From contig NZ_VFSV01000008.1 of assembly GCF_007004065.1 (NCBI RefSeq), positions 62,001-126,000 of the forward strand: a stretch of 64,000 nucleotides of DNA, read 5' to 3'. Both the position numbers and the translations under genes were made by a program. The notes under the pieces were generated by a model. That model did not search any database, was not told the origin of the DNA, and was given only the letters and a program-made list of their open reading frames with translations. Positions 1-62,583 of the stretch are shown in pieces. Numbering within the stretch: position 1 is the first letter of the stretch; each line of letters opens with the position of its first letter. The stretch comes from Palleronia caenipelagi (GTDB taxonomy: Bacteria; Pseudomonadota; Alphaproteobacteria; Rhodobacterales; Rhodobacteraceae).

Positions 1-1380
1 GCCGGGCACGAGGATCTTATCGTCGGGGATATCGCCATTCCGATCGCGGAAGACGGCCCATTCGTGGCCGTGGCGGGGGTTCGAGGTCTCGAACAGAACA
101 TAGCGGGCCCTGGCCGACATCAGGGTGTCGAACATCTTTGCCATGGAGATATCGCAGCAATGGGGGCCTTCGTAATTGCCCCAGCAAATATGGATGCGCA
201 CCCGCTCTTGCGGAACGTCGCTCAGGGCGTGGTTCAGCACCTCCACATGACTGTCGGCGATCGTCACGAACTCATCGTCGCTGAGATCGTTGAACAGCAT
301 GTGCCGGGAAAGGGCCAGATCGGGGCAGTCCAGCTGCAGATCCAGCCCGGCGGCGACGATGGTCTCGTACTCCGCCTTCATCGCGTCCGCGAGGGCGGCC
401 AGATAGGCGTCGCGGGTGGCATAGTGGTCGTTCTGCAAAAACAGCGAGATCACCCCCGGAGACGCGGCATTCATAAAGCCCCGCTCCGCCCCGTGCACAG
501 CCATCGCGGCCCGCAGATTGGCGATGTCTTTCTCAAGCTCGCCCTGACCCTTCGACCGCACCTCGCCCACGCACATCTTCCACGAGTTCGTCACCAAGAC
601 CGCCGGGGAGTTGTAGCCGTGTTCGGCCTGCCCCAGCAGGTCGGTGGCGCAGATCTCCGCATCGACAGTGTTGTCCGCGATCACCATGGTCTCGGTCGGA
701 CCGGCAAAGAGGTCGATCCCGACACGACCGAACAGCTGCCGTTTCGCCTCTGCAACAAAAGCGTTCCCCGGACCAACCAGCAGATGCACGGGTGCGATGC
801 TCTCGGTCCCGAGCGCCATAGCGCCCACCGCCTGAATGCCGCCCAGCACATAGATCTCATCCGCGCCGCCCAGATGCATCGCCGCGATGACCGCCGGGTT
901 GGGCTCGCCCCGAAAGGGCGGGGTGCAGGCGATGATGCGGGGCACGCCTGCGACCTTGGCCGTGGCTACGGACATATGGGCGGAGGCAACCATGGGAAAC
1001 TTGCCACCCGGCACGTAGCAACCCACCGATTGCACGGGAATGTTCTTATGCCCAAGGATCACACCCGGCAGCGTTTCGACCTCGATATCGGTCATGGAGG
1101 CGCGCTGGGCGCGGGCGAAATTCACCACCTGCTCTTGTGCGAATTTCATATCTTCCATGTCGCGCGGCGGGACCTTGGCTATGATCGATTTAATTTCGTC
1201 GTCGCTCAGCCGATAGCTGTCGCGGTCGTAGCTGTCGAATTTCATCGCCAGTTCGCGCACCGCCACATCGCCACGTGCCTCGATATCCGCGAGCGTGCTG
1301 GCCACGGCCTCGCGGACATTCGCATCATCCTCGGTCCTCTCCACCTCGGGCTTACTACGGTTGAGACACTCCTTTGCCAT
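1..1380 (-). CDS. Chimeric ORF: histidinol-dehydrogenase-family front joined in frame to a MetE-like back part (runs off the left edge)
   Basis: The frame is open from ATG at 1380 to base 1 with no stop. Residues 1 to about 268 are a histidinol dehydrogenase family protein, a family that includes NAD-dependent dehydrogenases such as HpsN. Motifs are [11 protein letters not shown] near residue 118, [12 protein letters not shown] near 200, DLFAGPTE, and LLGQAEHG near 250, which holds two zinc ligands. At about base 577 the protein becomes the middle and end of a cobalamin-independent methionine-synthase-like protein ([41 protein letters not shown]). The dehydrogenase C-terminal third (catalytic Glu-His, remaining zinc ligands) and roughly 100 N-terminal residues of the MetE-like protein are missing. 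I read this as a deletion between two tandem genes; the product cannot be a normal dehydrogenase. The start overlaps the upstream VOC stop by 26 bases, with AGGAAG just upstream. Confidence 0.75.
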
Positions 1381-1855
1381 CGGAGTCTTCCTTTTCCTGT
1401 CCGTCCGCTGCGAGCAGCGACGGGTCAAACGCAACCAGTTCCACGGTGTTTCCCTCCGGATCGAGGCAGAACACGCCCCGCCAGCCGATCCAGTCAAAGA
1501 CCTCGACCCGGTAATCGATGCCGTGATGCGAGAACCACCGCATGGCGTTCTCCTGCGCCTCATGGTCCACGGTCAAAGCGAGGTGATGCAGGGAGGACCC
1601 GGCGCCGGTCCGGGGTGCGTCACTGGTGTGGGGATGGATCTCGGCCCGCCCGGCGTCGCGGGCGAACAGCGCCAAAACCGCCGTATGCCCTCCATAGCCC
1701 GGCCCGATCCGGAAAAACACGATGCCGTCGTCGTCGGAGGATCCGCTGAGCACTTCCAGCCCGAGCACATCGCGGTAGAACGCCACCTGACGCCCAACGT
1801 CTCCGCATCGAATGGCGATCTCGCCCAGCGCCTTGATGTCGAAACCCCGCTCCAT
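1355..1855 (-). other. VOC (glyoxalase/dioxygenase fold) module with probable internal start
   Basis: This is the C-terminal part of the permease fusion, listed separately because ATG at 1855 is preceded by a GGAGAA ribosome binding site at usual spacing. From that start it would be a 166-residue single-domain VOC protein. His-containing strands ([12 protein letters not shown]) and a terminal Glu (GNTVELVAF) fit a metal-binding vicinal oxygen chelate fold. The substrate is unknown. Confidence 0.6.
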
Positions 1856-2743
1856 GACCCGTTCTCCCTTCACTGCGCCTGCAGTGAGACCGTAAACGAT
1901 CTGGCGCTGGAGGAACATCACCCGAATGAACAGCGGCGCGGGTGCGGAGACCACGGCGGCGACGGCGAACATGACGTTGCCTTCGGTCTGGGTCGTCCCG
2001 AGAAAGGCCGCGATCTGCGGGATCATGGTCCGGTGGCTCTCGGCCAGCAGCATCGAGGTCACGGCAAAATCGTTATAGGCCAGAAGGAAGCTGAACAGCC
2101 CCGTGGTGATCACCCCCGGCCACATGACCGGCACGATGACCAGCCGGAAGGCCTGAAACTGCGAGCACCCGTCCACCTTGGCGCTCTCGTCCAGCTCCTT
2201 GGGAATATTCTGAAAGAAGCTGTGTAGCATCCAAAGGGTAAAAGGCTGGTTGATCGCCACCAGCACGATGATGGTCGTGGGCAGGATGCCCCAGAGGTTC
2301 CACTCAAAGAATGGCAGCAGATAGCCCGACACGAGGGTGATCGGCGGCATGGCGCGGAAAATCAGCGCGGTGATCAGCAGCCAGAACGTGTAGCGGTAGG
2401 AGGACCGCGACAGGGCGTAGCCACCCAGCGTGCCAATGGTCAGCGATGTGCAGACCACGAAGAAGCAGACGATGAAGGTATTGATTGCGGGCCGCCAGAA
2501 ACCCTCTGCGACCCAAGCGCCGTAGTAACCGGCGCCGGTAAACGGGCTGCCATAAGTCTCTTCGGTGTTCTTGCCCGTCAGCGCATTGGTCCAGTCGGAG
2601 ATAGAGAAGAAATCCAGCTCGACCTTGAACGACCCCCAGAACGTCCAAAGGAACGGGAATGCGGCGATGATCAGCCAGACAATGATGAAGACGTTTGTGG
2701 CGATCCGCAGGCCGAGGGGTGCGCGTTGCGCTTTGGAAGCCAT
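1355..2743 (-). CDS. ABC transporter permease (MalG type) fused in frame to a VOC/glyoxalase-like domain
   Basis: Residues 1-296 are an inner-membrane permease of the carbohydrate MalG family. There are about six hydrophobic segments, and the EAA-type loop reads [17 protein letters not shown]. Family members normally end near GLTAGAVKG. Here the frame continues through ERV into a complete 166-residue VOC domain ([33 protein letters not shown]). The ATG at 2743 overlaps the TGA of the preceding permease (TGATG). An in-frame ATG at 1855 with GGAGAA upstream looks like the original VOC start, so the permease stop has probably been lost and the VOC protein may still be made alone. An earlier upstream start would lie inside the previous gene and is not used here. 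Partners are the ATPase at 5131-6180 and the binding protein at 3835-5064. Confidence 0.8.
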
Positions 2744-3771
2744 CAGTGCGTACTCCTGGAATCCCGCCATGTGCGGATGAGAACCGGTGACAGCAGAACC
2801 GCCACCCCGAGGATTGTCAGAACCGAGGTCGCTGCAGCGGCGGAGAGCTGGCGCGTCTCGCCACCCAGATCGTTGAAGATGATCCATGACAGGGACGTGG
2901 CATGGGCCTGCGCGTTGAACCCGACGATCTCCTCGAACACCCGGAAGTTATCCATCAGCTTGATCAGGGTGACGAAGGTCACGAGCGGCATCAGATGCGG
3001 CACCACCACCAGACGCAATTGCTGGAACCGGCTGGCGCCGTCGATCTGCGCCGCTTCGATCTGGTCTTTGGGCAGGGTCTGGAGACCGGCATAGAAGACC
3101 ACAAAGGCGAAGGGCGCCGAGTGCCAGATCCCGTAGATGATGATTGCGATCCACATGAGCGGCGTCGAGGCCTTCAGCGAGAGCTGCGGATCGCCCGTCA
3201 GGTAGATCATCAGATTGCCGATGACGCCGCGGCTGTCGATCATCCAGAACATGATCAACGCCCCGATGATCGGCGTGACGATCATAGGCAGGAGTGAAAA
3301 GAAGATCGCCAGCCCCTTGAGATGGCGGTGCAGGGAATTGACCGCCACCGCGATCATCAGCCCCAGCAGGATCAGCAAGGGGACGGTGACGAACGTGTAG
3401 ACCAGCGTAAAGCTCATGGCGCGGTAGAAGGGCAGGTTTTGCAGCTTGCCAAAGAAAGCGCCCAGGCTGTCGCTGCTCCGCCACGCCTCGCCGACCTCGG
3501 CGACCGCCAGATGGCCCCGGTCGAGATAGACATCCAGCCCGATGAACCGGCCCAGCGGTGCCGCGTCCCGCAGCGCACGGGTGGCCTCCTGATCGACCGT
3601 GGTTTCCTTGGTGCAGCCCACCAGCGGGGTGCAGTTCTCGACCACCTTCAGCACAGCCTCATGGGGGGCAAAGAGGGACTAGGTCACCACTGATACGATC
3701 GGCGCGGCGATGAACAGGAGCATCGCCAGACCTGTGGGCAGAAAAAACCAAAAGAACGTGCGGTGCTTCAT
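2743..3771 (-). pseudogene. ABC transporter permease (MalF type) interrupted by an amber codon at position 31
   Basis: Reading from ATG at 3771 gives a typical first membrane segment (MKHRTFFWFFLPTG...IAAPIVSVVT). A TAG at 3681-3679 follows, and then the same frame continues for about 310 codons as an ordinary MalF-type permease with LPKDQIEAAQIDGASRFQQL as the coupling loop. Relatives as I remember them have Gln at this place, so a single CAG-to-TAG change explains it. The remaining open frame could start at 3654 but lacks the first membrane segment and a clear ribosome binding site. It may be a real nonsense mutation or a base-call error. It sits between the binding protein and the second permease. 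Confidence 0.85.
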
Positions 3772-3834: not shown

Positions 3835-5064
3835 TTACTGGAGGTAGCCGTTTTCCTTGGCAGCAGCGGTGTAAGCGGCCTCCACATCGGCCAGCGCCTG
3901 CTCCGCACTTTCCTTGCCCTGCATGAAGTCCGACAGCTCATTGCCGAGCGCGGTGTGCATCAGCCCCATATAGGGCAGCATCGGATAGGGCTTCGTCCCC
4001 ATCTGCGCGGCGGCAAAGACGCCCTTGGCAGCTTCGGTCCGCTCATAGCCGGGGATCAGCCATACGGCCTGCTTCGCCACCTCTTCATCGTCGAGGATCT
4101 CCGGACGGATGGCATAGCTCAGCGCTTTGAAGGTGGAGGCGGCCTCGTCGTCAGAGACGTTTTTCGCCACGGTCCAGCCATCCCACCACAGGGTCGATGC
4201 GGGGATCTCGCCGCCGCCGACAGTCATCGGTCCGGCAATGGCCATGCCGTCAATGACCTCCTGCGGCACGCCCTCGGCATCGGTCAGGGTCGCGGCCCGG
4301 CTGCCCCACATGTTCATCAGCGCCACATTGCCAACGCGGAACTCGGCATTGGTGGCATTGCTGTCATGGGTCAGGAAATCCGGGTTCATGTACTCCGACA
4401 GCGACTTCATCATGTTGAGCGCATTCACACCGGCCTCGGTGTTCACGCTCGGATTGGCGGTCCCGGCCTCGAAAAACTCGCCCCCATAGCCGATGAACAT
4501 GTTCACGAACTCTTCGGCGAGGTTCCAGCCCGCCGCATAGGCGCCGCCGACCGGGTTATCCATCAGACCCTTGTCACGGATCATCTTTGCGGCGGCGAGC
4601 ATGTCTTCGTAGGTTTTCGGTGGCTCGACCCCGATCTCTGAGAGCACATCCGCGCGGTAGACCAGATGCTGGGCGTTGGCCATGAAAGCCACAGCCATCA
4701 CATCATCGCCAATGCGGATCAGCTGCTGATCGCTCAGCCGGTCGCCATGGGTGTCGACCAGGTCGTTGAGGGGGCGGATCACGTCTTCGTTCATCAGCGC
4801 GACGATCGAGGAGTTGGCGATAATCGCCGAGGTATACTCCGCCGGATCGCCCTGCATGCCCGCCAGATTGATCTTCTGGTGGTCGGCCGTGAGGTTCGTT
4901 GTGACCTCCGCCCCGGAGCAGTCCTGTGCTCCCGCGCCGACCGTCTGGATCGCGGGGAATTCGTTACCCACGATGCTCACGCGCGCTGTGATCTCACACT
5001 CGGCAAAGGCGCCGCCTGCGGTCAGAGCCAGAACTCCGGCGGTAGTCAGGCTTCTCAGAAACAT
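3835..5064 (-). CDS. Extracellular solute-binding protein of a carbohydrate-type ABC transporter
   Basis: This is a 409-residue family 1 solute-binding protein. The start at 5064 is preferred because GGGAGGA lies just upstream and because it begins a clean signal peptide (MFLRSLTTAGVLALTAGGAFA, cut before ECEI). Another 17 residues in frame upstream are unsupported. The body has periplasmic-binding-protein features such as VYRADVLSEIGVEPPKTYEDM and a late Trp-rich segment (STLWWDGWTVAKN). It lies between the ATPase gene (66 bases upstream) and the permeases. The substrate cannot be told from sequence; sugar, polyol or a sulfonated polyol are possible given the dehydrogenase in the operon. Confidence 0.88.
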   Translation of the reverse strand: MFLRSLTTAGVLALTAGGAFAECEITARVSIVGNEFPAIQTVGAGAQDCSGAEVTTNLTADHQKINLAGMQGDPAEYTSAIIANSSIVALMNEDVIRPLNDLVDTHGDRLSDQQLIRIGDDVMAVAFMANAQHLVYRADVLSEIGVEPPKTYEDMLAAAKMIRDKGLMDNPVGGAYAAGWNLAEEFVNMFIGYGGEFFEAGTANPSVNTEAGVNALNMMKSLSEYMNPDFLTHDSNATNAEFRVGNVALMNMWGSRAATLTDAEGVPQEVIDGMAIAGPMTVGGGEIPASTLWWDGWTVAKNVSDDEAASTFKALSYAIRPEILDDEEVAKQAVWLIPGYERTEAAKGVFAAAQMGTKPYPMLPYMGLMHTALGNELSDFMQGKESAEQALADVEAAYTAAAKENGYLQ

Positions 5065-5130
5065 GTTGTCCTCCCTGTTTCCTTTTGGTTCGGGATGCGC
5101 CTTGCAACCACGCATCCAGGTCTTTGGGTA

Positions 5131-6180
5131 TCACTCGCTGAGCCGCGCTCCGGTCCCGCCATCAAAGAGATGGCAATGTTCGCCGGGGACGCGGATCGAG
5201 ACCGGCTCCCCGATTTCGGCTCGAAAGCTCTTGTCGGCCTTGGCGCTGACCAGCGCGCCGCCGATGCGCAGGCTGACCATGGTCGCGTCACCAAGCAACT
5301 CCAGCGTGTAGATCGGCCCGGTGATCTGACCGGACCCGGTGCCGACCTCCGCATCCTCGGCCCGGAAGCCCAGCGTCACCGGCCCGTCAGGGGCCCGCAG
5401 ACCTCCGATTTCGGTATTCTCGGCGCGGAACACACCGCCGGAGATCTGGCCCTTGATGAGGTTCATCGCCGGACTGCCGATGAAACTCGCCACAAAGGTA
5501 TTCGCGGGTCGGTCATAGATCTCGGTCGGACTGCCCACCTGCTGAACCACGCCTTTCTCCATCACCACCACACGATCCGCGAGGGTCATCGCCTCGATCT
5601 GGTCGTGGGTGACGTAGACCGTGGTCACCGCGAGTTCGTGGCTGAGGTTCTTGATCTGCGCCCGTGTGGAGACGCGCAGCTTCGCATCGAGATTGGACAG
5701 GGGCTCGTCCATGAGGAAAACATTGAGCTGGCGCACAATGGCCCGGGCGAGCGCGACCCTCTGGCGTTGACCGCCAGACAGCTCCGCCGGTTTGCGGTGC
5801 AGAAAATCGTCCAGCTCGACCATCGCACTGGCAAGCATCACTTTTTCCTTTTGTCCCGCCGGGTCGCTGCCACGCACGCGCAAAGGAAAGCGGATGTTCT
5901 CATAGACGTTCAGGTTCGGGTAAAGCGCATAGCTCTGCAACACCATCGCCACGTCCCGATCCTTGGGCTCCAGATCGTTCACCACCTTCCCGTCGATCAG
6001 AATCTCGCCCTCGGTCGGGTCTTCGAGACCGGCGATCATCCGCATCGTGGTGGTCTTGCCGCAGCCCGAGGGGCCCAGCAAGACGAGGAATTCGCGGTCA
6101 GGAATAGTCAGGTCGAGCTTGCCCACACAGACAAAGGAGCCCCGGCGGTTTGAGACGCCCGACAATCTGATCTCGGCCAC
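5131..6180 (-). CDS. ABC transporter ATP-binding protein (MsmK/UgpC type)
   Basis: This cytoplasmic ATPase has 349 residues from GTG at 6180. Motifs are Walker A (GPSGCGKTTT), Q-loop (MVLQSYALYP), signature (LSGGQRQRVALARAI), Walker B (VFLMDEPLSNLD) and the H-loop (VYVTHDQ), followed by a C-terminal TOBE-like region typical of sugar importers. I chose the GTG because GGGGAAGG lies about six bases upstream; an in-frame TTG at 6198 has no such site. It is the first gene of the minus-strand operon. Unlike the genes downstream of the binding protein, it looks intact. Confidence 0.88.
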   Translation of the reverse strand: MAEIRLSGVSNRRGSFVCVGKLDLTIPDREFLVLLGPSGCGKTTTMRMIAGLEDPTEGEILIDGKVVNDLEPKDRDVAMVLQSYALYPNLNVYENIRFPLRVRGSDPAGQKEKVMLASAMVELDDFLHRKPAELSGGQRQRVALARAIVRQLNVFLMDEPLSNLDAKLRVSTRAQIKNLSHELAVTTVYVTHDQIEAMTLADRVVVMEKGVVQQVGSPTEIYDRPANTFVASFIGSPAMNLIKGQISGGVFRAENTEIGGLRAPDGPVTLGFRAEDAEVGTGSGQITGPIYTLELLGDATMVSLRIGGALVSAKADKSFRAEIGEPVSIRVPGEHCHLFDGGTGARLSE

Positions 6181-6204
6181 TGGAGCCTTCCCCGGCAATC
6201 GATA

Positions 6205-6222
6205 ATTGCAGACGCTGGCAAT
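6205..6222. promoter_or_regulatory. Candidate operator in the divergent gap upstream of the ABC operon
   Basis: ATTGC and GCAAT arms are separated by eight bases, with a further GCAAT at 6195-6199. It lies in the 65-base gap between the ATPase gene and the divergent SnoaL-like pseudogene. The 18-base size fits a repressor operator, but no regulator gene is next to it. The call is weak. Confidence 0.25.
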
Positions 6223-6245: not shown

Positions 6246-7280
6246 TTGGGGGATTGTTTTCTTGAAGGCGTATGCAATTTTTCCCCAGAAGGTTGGAAAG
6301 ATAGAAGGTTCCAGAGAGAACAGGCCATCTTTCGGGAGTTTCACAGAGCTCTGGACGCCGCCTCAGATCACGCCACGGGCGAATCACTGGCGCGATTTCT
6401 CAGCCCGGATCAACTGTGGCGCAGCTTTCATACCTTTGTCCTGATCACAGAACCACAGGAGATGGCCACAAAGTTCTGGACCCCGCTCAAAGCCGCTCTC
6501 ACTGCCCTGACCCACCGTGAAGACATCTTCTTTGCCGGGCGAAACGAGATGGACGGTTTTGCCACCACATGGGTGGTGTCCATGGGGCATCTGATGGGGC
6601 TATTCGACCGGCCGTGGCTGGGGGTCCGGCCCACGGAGAAGATCGCCATGCTCCGCTACTGCAGCTTTTACCGGGTTGAGGGCGACCGGATCACCGAAAC
6701 CGCCATGTATTTCGACCTCCCGCACCTCATGGCGCAGGCAGGGCTGCCCATATGGCGCGATCAGACGGCCCAGCATCTGGTCCAGCCCGGCCCGGCAACC
6801 CATGATGGGCTCCTCTATGACCCGCCCCCCCCCCCGAAGAAGGTCAGCAGACCCTCGCACTGATCAACAGGATGATCACGGATCTCGGGCAGTGGAGTTC
6901 TGAGCTGTCGCTGGAGGATGAGCTGGCGCGGACATGGGCCGATGACATGCTCTGGTGGGGTCCGGAGGGGATCGGCGCGACCTACACCATCGCCCGCGAC
7001 GCAGAGCAGCATTCCGGCCCAAGGACTAAGCCGCTCCGCGGCATTGGCGCGTCTGGCGGAGGAAGCCTTTGGCGGCTTTCTTGGCTGGCCCAATTTCACC
7101 GCAACCCTGTCAGGCCCCTTCATGGGACATCCCCCCACGGGGTGGCCCGGAGACTTCCGGGTAATCGATGTCTACCGCCGCGACGGGGACAAGCTGGGCC
7201 AAAACTAGATTTTCATCGACCTTCTGCACTTCTAGGAAATGCCGGGGCGTGATTTTCTGGCTGAGGTGGCGGGGTCCTGA
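6246..7280 (+). pseudogene. SnoaL/NTF2-like two-domain protein, broken by two frameshifts and two stops
   Basis: Pieces in different frames together make a protein of about 345 residues with two SnoaL-like (polyketide-cyclase-type) domains. Domain one (REDIFFAGRNEMDGFATTWV, MGHLMGLFDRPWLG, FLSPDQLWRSF) runs to the C tract at 6825-6835. One C is missing there, and the frame continues in the next phase as EEGQQTLALINRM...GIGATYTIARDAEQHSGP. A second indel around 7020-7050 returns to the first phase (RLAEEAFGGFLGWPNF, VIDVYRRDGDKL). In that phase TAG codons at 7206-7208 and 7233-7235 stand where I expect Trp (N-W-IFIDLLHF-W). The start, TTG at 6246 or a later codon, is uncertain. The gene is divergent from the ABC operon and ends one base before regA. 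Confidence 0.85.
6825..6835 (+). repeat. Run of 11 C within the SnoaL-like pseudogene
   Basis: Eleven consecutive C bases (after CCCG) encode the proline-rich linker between the two SnoaL domains. Twelve would keep both domains in one frame. It may be a slippage site, a real deletion, or a sequencing error. Confidence 0.9.
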
Positions 7281-61855: not shown

Positions 61856-62583
61856 TCCGCCGCCTCGGGGAAGTCCTGCCGCAGCCGCGCCACGGCCTGC
61901 TCCAGCAACGTCCCGTCCGTGCCGCGCAGGACAATGGCGACCTGATGCCCGGTGCCGGTCCACGACGGATAGGAGCCTACGGACAGATCCGGGAATTCAG
62001 CGGCCAGCGCGGCCAGCGGCGCGGCAATGTCGCCCTCGCCCCGGGAGACGCGCAGGGTGCGGCTCAGAACCGGTGCTCCCCCCGCCAGACGCGGGAGAAG
62101 CCCGGCCAGCATTGCCTCAAAAATCTGTGGCACCCCGGCCATCACGTGGATGTTACGCAGGGAAAAGCCCGGCGCGGAAGAGATCGGGTTGTCGATCAGC
62201 TCCGCCCCGTCGGGGATCCGGGCCATGCGCAGGCGCGCTTCGTTCAACTCGGCATCGCGGGCGGCATAATGGGCCTGAAGGATCGCGCGGGCATCGTCTC
62301 GCACCCCGATGGGCGTGTCGAACACTGCGGCGATGCAATCGGCGGTGATGTCGTCATGGGTCGGCCCGATGCCACCCGAGGTGAAGAGGTGGGTGTAGCG
62401 CCCGGACAGGTCCCGCGCGGCGCCGGTGATCGCGTCGGGTTTGTCGCTGACCACGCGGATCTCGCACAGCTCGATCCCGCGCTCGGTGAGGGCCTTTGCC
62501 AGATGATGCGCGTTCGAGTCGCGGGTCCGGCCCGAGAGGATCTCGTCTCCGATTACAAGCATGGCGGCAGTGGGGTTTGTCAT
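61852..62583 (-). CDS. Molybdopterin-binding protein, MoaB/CinA N-terminal-like
   Basis: 243 residues from ATG at 62583. MLVIGDEILSGRTRDSNAHH and FTSGGIGPTHDDITADCIA are the MoCF_biosynth motifs. The CinA C-terminal nicotinamide-mononucleotide amidase domain is absent. It may be a pyrophosphatase or cofactor-binding protein. The 49 bases upstream to sfsA hold the divergent promoters. Confidence 0.88.
   Translation of the reverse strand: MTNPTAAMLVIGDEILSGRTRDSNAHHLAKALTERGIELCEIRVVSDKPDAITGAARDLSGRYTHLFTSGGIGPTHDDITADCIAAVFDTPIGVRDDARAILQAHYAARDAELNEARLRMARIPDGAELIDNPISSAPGFSLRNIHVMAGVPQIFEAMLAGLLPRLAGGAPVLSRTLRVSRGEGDIAAPLAALAAEFPDLSVGSYPSWTGTGHQVAIVLRGTDGTLLEQAVARLRQDFPEAAE

Follow-up and report, generated by a model that had tools for sequence, protein, structure and literature searches.

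A HisD-like/MetE-like chimeric reading frame in Palleronia caenipelagi and its probable origin by deletion within a catabolic operon

HpsN is the sulfopropanediol (DHPS) 3-dehydrogenase, and is the best solved relative (PDB 8v35, E 8e-118) of an intact HisD-like protein encoded by a relative of Palleronia caenipelagi (genome G013). The second protein family considered here is MetE-like, that is, similar to cobalamin-independent methionine synthase II, and its solved relatives are weak (best 3rpd, E 6e-5). The CpHpsN study (PMC11382572) names Glu318, His319 and Asp352 as important residues and identifies as a zinc ligand His411, which the partner subunit contributes. In its account HpsN has the motif G-R-Y-A/S-H at the place where HisD has G-S-A-P-L. 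The closest known system to the locus described here is an intact operon on plasmid NZ_CP081104 of Ruegeria conchae M340. It begins with genes for an ABC ATP-binding protein, a solute-binding protein (SBP), two permeases and ester cyclases, continues with 'hisD', an ester cyclase and an SDR, and ends with LacI, a further ester cyclase, a cupin, 'methionine synthase II', an alpha/beta hydrolase and RraA. The locus compared with it lies at the edge of a 64,000-nucleotide stretch of P. caenipelagi DNA, hereafter the window, which corresponds to positions 62001–126000 of contig C171.

A single frame with two parent families

A minus-strand reading frame opens with an ATG at window position 1380 and remains open to window base 1, from where it runs a further 204 bases past the window edge to a normal stop. 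The complete ORF (C171:61797–63380, minus strand; L004:5794–7380) encodes 528 aa with a complete C-terminus. The sequence-only reading had reported one open frame that changes family near base 577, and this was borne out. The front, residues 1–268 (577..1380, minus strand), was assigned to the HisD/HpsN-superfamily dehydrogenases from Pfam, tblastn and relatives, whereas the back, residues 269–460 within the window (1..576, minus strand) and on to 528 outside it, was found to be MetE-like from family models, tblastn and relatives. Comparison of the DNA with that of relatives placed the junction between K268 and M269 (576..577, minus strand), the sequence following the HisD family as far as AACTCGTGGAAG and the MetE family starting from ATGTGCGTGGGC. 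The nearest relatives of the front and back show 89% and 87% identity, respectively. Frameshift or stop-codon decay in the ORF was considered and rejected, none being present, as was a second MetE-like copy in the same genome, where only the chimera was found. Scans of the window for tRNA genes and Rfam families returned none.

The Pfam Histidinol_dh (PF00815) match covers residues 15–275 of the chimera and only positions 4–265 of the 411 in the profile, although the score alone passes the cut-offs of both Pfam and TIGR00069. With a TIGR00069 (hisD) score of 279 against a cut-off of 244 (428 for the intact relative), the truncated chimera is a warning for annotation. The back matches the models of B12-independent methionine synthase weakly (E about 2e-5), and the 460 residues within the window gave no match to PF01717 at 0.001; the intact relative of the back matches this family with an E of 6e-12. 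About 166 C-terminal residues of the 434 in the HisD-like protein are missing from the front and about 111 N-terminal residues of the MetE-like protein from the back, in agreement with the earlier estimates of a lost C-terminal third and a lost first 100 or so residues.

The same boundary was recovered by tblastn against the fetched loci. Alignments of the front ended at residue 269 or 270 in 102 of 123 matches (at least 60% identity), and the start of the back fell on one of the same two residues in 80 of 88. One family extending across the whole ORF, the circumstance that the sequence-only reading had named as fatal to its proposal, was ruled out by the Pfam coverage together with this split of the alignments at 268/269. 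Three of 251 HSPs crossed the junction by at least 30 aa (L125, L044 and L163; residues 18–302, 44–64% identity). In L044 and L163 the C-terminal part of HisD directly follows the front, and their crossing HSPs are therefore HisD alignments running on.

A family-wide search found matches to the chimera at E 1e-60 or better in 272 of 394 genomes, paralogues included; among the matches listed, a span of the full query was seen in the chimera's own genome only, and no other protein among them has both halves. When the 201 bases around the junction were used as the query, 10 of the 14 genus genomes matched, with a match crossing the junction again confined to the own genome. Among the best 80 of 581 relatives in a named genome collection, in which the own genome or its nearest relative may be absent, none matched past residue 302. 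The chimera is thus confirmed as a real feature of the assembly.

The intact operon and the interval missing here

Among distinct HisD-like homologues from the retrieved loci (at least 60% identity), 110 of 111 are complete, the exception stopping at a contig end, as are 84 of 87 distinct MetE-like homologues (at least 50% identity), the three exceptions reaching the end of the DNA retrieved. Both genes occur together in 68 loci, which include some copies of one place; in 59 of these they lie on the same strand, HisD first and 148–8031 bp apart, and in the remaining nine on opposite strands. Two separate complete genes, usually on one strand and in one operon, are therefore what the relatives carry, as had been anticipated. 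A deletion between two adjacent catabolic genes had been among the origins proposed, and a deletion within one operon is the best supported of these; the genes are, however, not adjacent, and in the nearest relatives with synteny some 5 kb lies between them. In L084, L086 and L103 the genes between them encode an ester cyclase, an SDR, LacI, a second ester cyclase and a cupin, and L083 has the same set without a recognised SDR. From the coordinates of these four loci the stretch missing here amounts to about 5.7–5.8 kb, and the corresponding stretch in G013 to about 7 kb.

The missing genes were then sought in the rest of the P. caenipelagi genome. The interval DNA of G013 matched only HisD paralogues there, together with two weak hits each roughly 100 bases long. 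The cupin gave no match, compared with six positives in six other genomes, and the second ester cyclase, whose query ORF overlaps the start of the LacI gene, gave none, compared with three of three others. Seven LacI-like matches are present, the best at 38% identity, which is paralogue level, against 59–63% in three of three others; the LacI orthologue is thus absent from the genome. Taken together, both parents are intact in relatives, on the same strand and in the same operon, and the interval that separates them is absent here, the SDR and first ester cyclase being covered by the DNA search alone.

The genes upstream of the chimera, identified from the ORF list and relatives, are all on the minus strand. 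An ABC ATP-binding protein (5131..6198) is encoded by the first gene of the operon and is followed by a solute-binding protein (3835..5115), the first permease (2743..3654) and a second permease (1355..2743) that forms an in-frame fusion with a VOC/glyoxalase-like domain, the VOC ATG lying at 1853–1855. In the six relatives compared the second permease ends in AVKG and a stop; the stop is absent here and the frame continues into VOC. The only other retrieved locus whose VOC is close and full-length (G033, L034) encodes it on its own, ahead of hisD. Outside the window, an RraA-family gene (C171:60528–61097; L004:4528–5097) has an in-frame gap of 32 codons, the 32 alignment columns being filled in the 13 relatives compared except for one column in one of them. 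The frame is preserved in both the permease–VOC fusion and the RraA gap. In a small control of 11 ORFs from two other loci of the same genome, gaps of at least 8 residues were seen against at most three matches each. Judged from this gap and from changes at 4 of 31 invariant positions, RraA is probably decaying.

Two operator-like sites precede the first gene, each one mismatch from the consensus of relatives, TTGCA-N6-TGCAA: TTGCCAGCGTCTGCAA (6206..6221, minus strand) and TTGCATACGCCTTCAA (6262..6277, minus strand). They are 56 bases apart, compared with 54–55 in relatives with a pair, and two such sites never arose when the bases of the region were shuffled 20000 times. Among 23 distinct loci in which the ABC gene comes first, 22 have a LacI homologue and 14 have a pair of sites (at most one mismatch each, 54–55 bases apart), both perfect in nine; L083 and L084 keep a single site, and no site within one mismatch was found in L044, L132, L154 or L169. 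The pair would be the operator for the operon's own LacI protein, and P. caenipelagi keeps it although its LacI gene is missing. Its retention supports the view that an ancestor would have carried a LacI gene in the interval now missing. Further upstream, at about 7012–7066 of the window, a stretch of approximately 42–55 bases recurs at 84–91% identity in several genomes of the same genus, twice beginning at contig base 300, and could be a repeat or the end of a mobile element.

What the two halves retain

The sequence-only reading had placed the front in the HisD/HpsN family, which holds at the superfamily level and fails for HpsN itself. Where HpsN carries G-R-Y-A/S-H, residues 126–130 of the chimera read GKFPM, and 108 distinct homologues carry GKFPM (80) or near variants (28), with none having GRYA/SH. 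The motif given there for HisD, GSAPL, is likewise absent from the chimera, but the HisD-family copy on contig C147 of the same genome reads GLASY at this place and so lacks GSAPL too. As TIGR00069 also accepts the intact relative, the sequence may still be compatible with HisD proper. A widespread operon was seen around this HisD-like GKFPM subfamily without the HpsN motif (L034, L035, L083–L094 and L183), for which our literature search found no fitting paper; nothing relevant was found on HisD/MetE-like fusions of this kind.

In the intact relative, the HpsN residues Glu318, His319, Asp352 and His411 correspond to positions 317, 318, 351 and 411. All four lie past the junction at 268, leaving the chimera without the Glu/His pair and the Asp/His zinc ligands, and for this reason the front should not catalyse. 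The back keeps HICWGN at 397, FETSNPR at 430 and AGSDCGFG at 493, which we take to be the zinc-site motifs (H-x-C, E, C) of PF01717. THVGSLPR and VSDGE are absent from the chimera, and the back lacks the first part of its barrel. Since the front has lost the HpsN-equivalent residues and the back the first part of the barrel, both enzymes are presumed dead and the chimera non-functional.

Signs of decay in the chimera itself are few. One of 100 invariant positions is changed in the front and none of 103 in the back (74 and 73 homologues, at least 70% identity), and in the same test 61 of the 74 and 58 of the 73 intact relatives show no changes. The earlier impression that the event is recent is strengthened by this total of 1/203. 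With a wider homologue set, the chimera shows no change at 77 positions in the front and 99 in the back (0/176), whereas the other genes of the operon together show 14/433 (ABC 3/143, SBP 0/41, permease A 4/69, permease B 2/116, hydrolase 1/33 and RraA 4/31), with identity cut-offs that differ per gene and only one homologue for VOC. The contrast has a Fisher p of 0.014 for 0/176 and 0.046 for 1/203 against 14/433, the two tests not being independent. Such a pattern would fit a recent deletion in an operon that is, in parts, under relaxed selection.

Deletion, misassembly or a new protein

The explanation that best accommodates these observations, to which we assign a probability of about 0.82, is one recent in-frame and homology-independent deletion of roughly 5.7–5.8 kb in a catabolic operon of a kind that is common among marine bacteria and serves nutrient use. 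Illegitimate joining would have removed this much of a LacI-controlled operon. Besides the 3' part of the hisD-like gene and the 5' part of the MetE-like gene, the loss would have included the genes for an ester cyclase, an SDR, the LacI-type regulator, a second ester cyclase and a cupin. Up to five whole genes would be gone, including the operon's own LacI-type regulator. The frame would have been kept by chance (1 in 3), giving a single 528-aa chimera, and the transporter genes would be left without their own repressor in an operon presumably under relaxed selection. One locus argues against a deletion this large: in L123 the HisD and MetE-like copies are only about 150 bp apart, and with such an ancestral gap the deletion may have been smaller. 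Both the arrangement in the closest relatives and the surviving operators speak against this without settling the matter, as the sites could serve a different LacI protein.

Had the assembly instead joined distant parts of an intact operon and lost its middle, the same frame would appear, and the draft state of the assembly (192 contigs) and the restriction of the join, among the matches listed, to this genome would suit such an artefact. However, although the assembly is scored 99.7% complete, none of its contigs gave a match to the cupin, to the second ester cyclase or to the LacI orthologue. As judged from the parent sequences of relatives, the two parents share at most about one base at the junction, so no repeat is visible there that could have misled an assembler. 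The same operon also holds two further frame-keeping changes, compared with 11 control ORFs without well-supported gaps, a small control. The assembly join that had been offered as one option is thereby made unlikely, and we infer that the deletion took place in the cell with the size and gene content given above.

The sequence-only reading had also offered a new fusion protein. In the form considered here, the nucleotide-binding part of the HisD-like enzyme and the zinc-site part of the MetE-like barrel would have been selected together. The frame is open, neither half has decayed, and the smaller number of invariant changes than in the rest of the operon speaks against a plainly dead gene; nothing other than this marginal and weak contrast in constraint hints at retention of the chimera. 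Against selection, both halves are without parts needed by their families, no other match among those listed spans the junction, the enzymes that would act alongside it in the operon are missing, and little decay is also predicted by a recent deletion. A selected fusion is accordingly very improbable, and it is just as hard to credit that two incomplete catalytic domains would be retained as a working enzyme in an otherwise drifting operon. The locus is most likely a broken operon and not the source of a new protein.

Deletions fusing two genes of one operon are an ordinary kind of event. The chimera also points to a widespread operon whose HisD-like subfamily lacks the HpsN motif, with a TTGCA-N6-TGCAA site or pair upstream in many relatives, and this operon may deserve more attention than the fusion. 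When compared with the intact operon of R. conchae M340, the P. caenipelagi operon shares the transporter order, the two enzymes on the same strand and the two downstream genes. It differs before hisD, where a VOC gene stands in place of an ester cyclase, and in the absence of everything from the middle of 'hisD' to the first third of the MetE-like gene.
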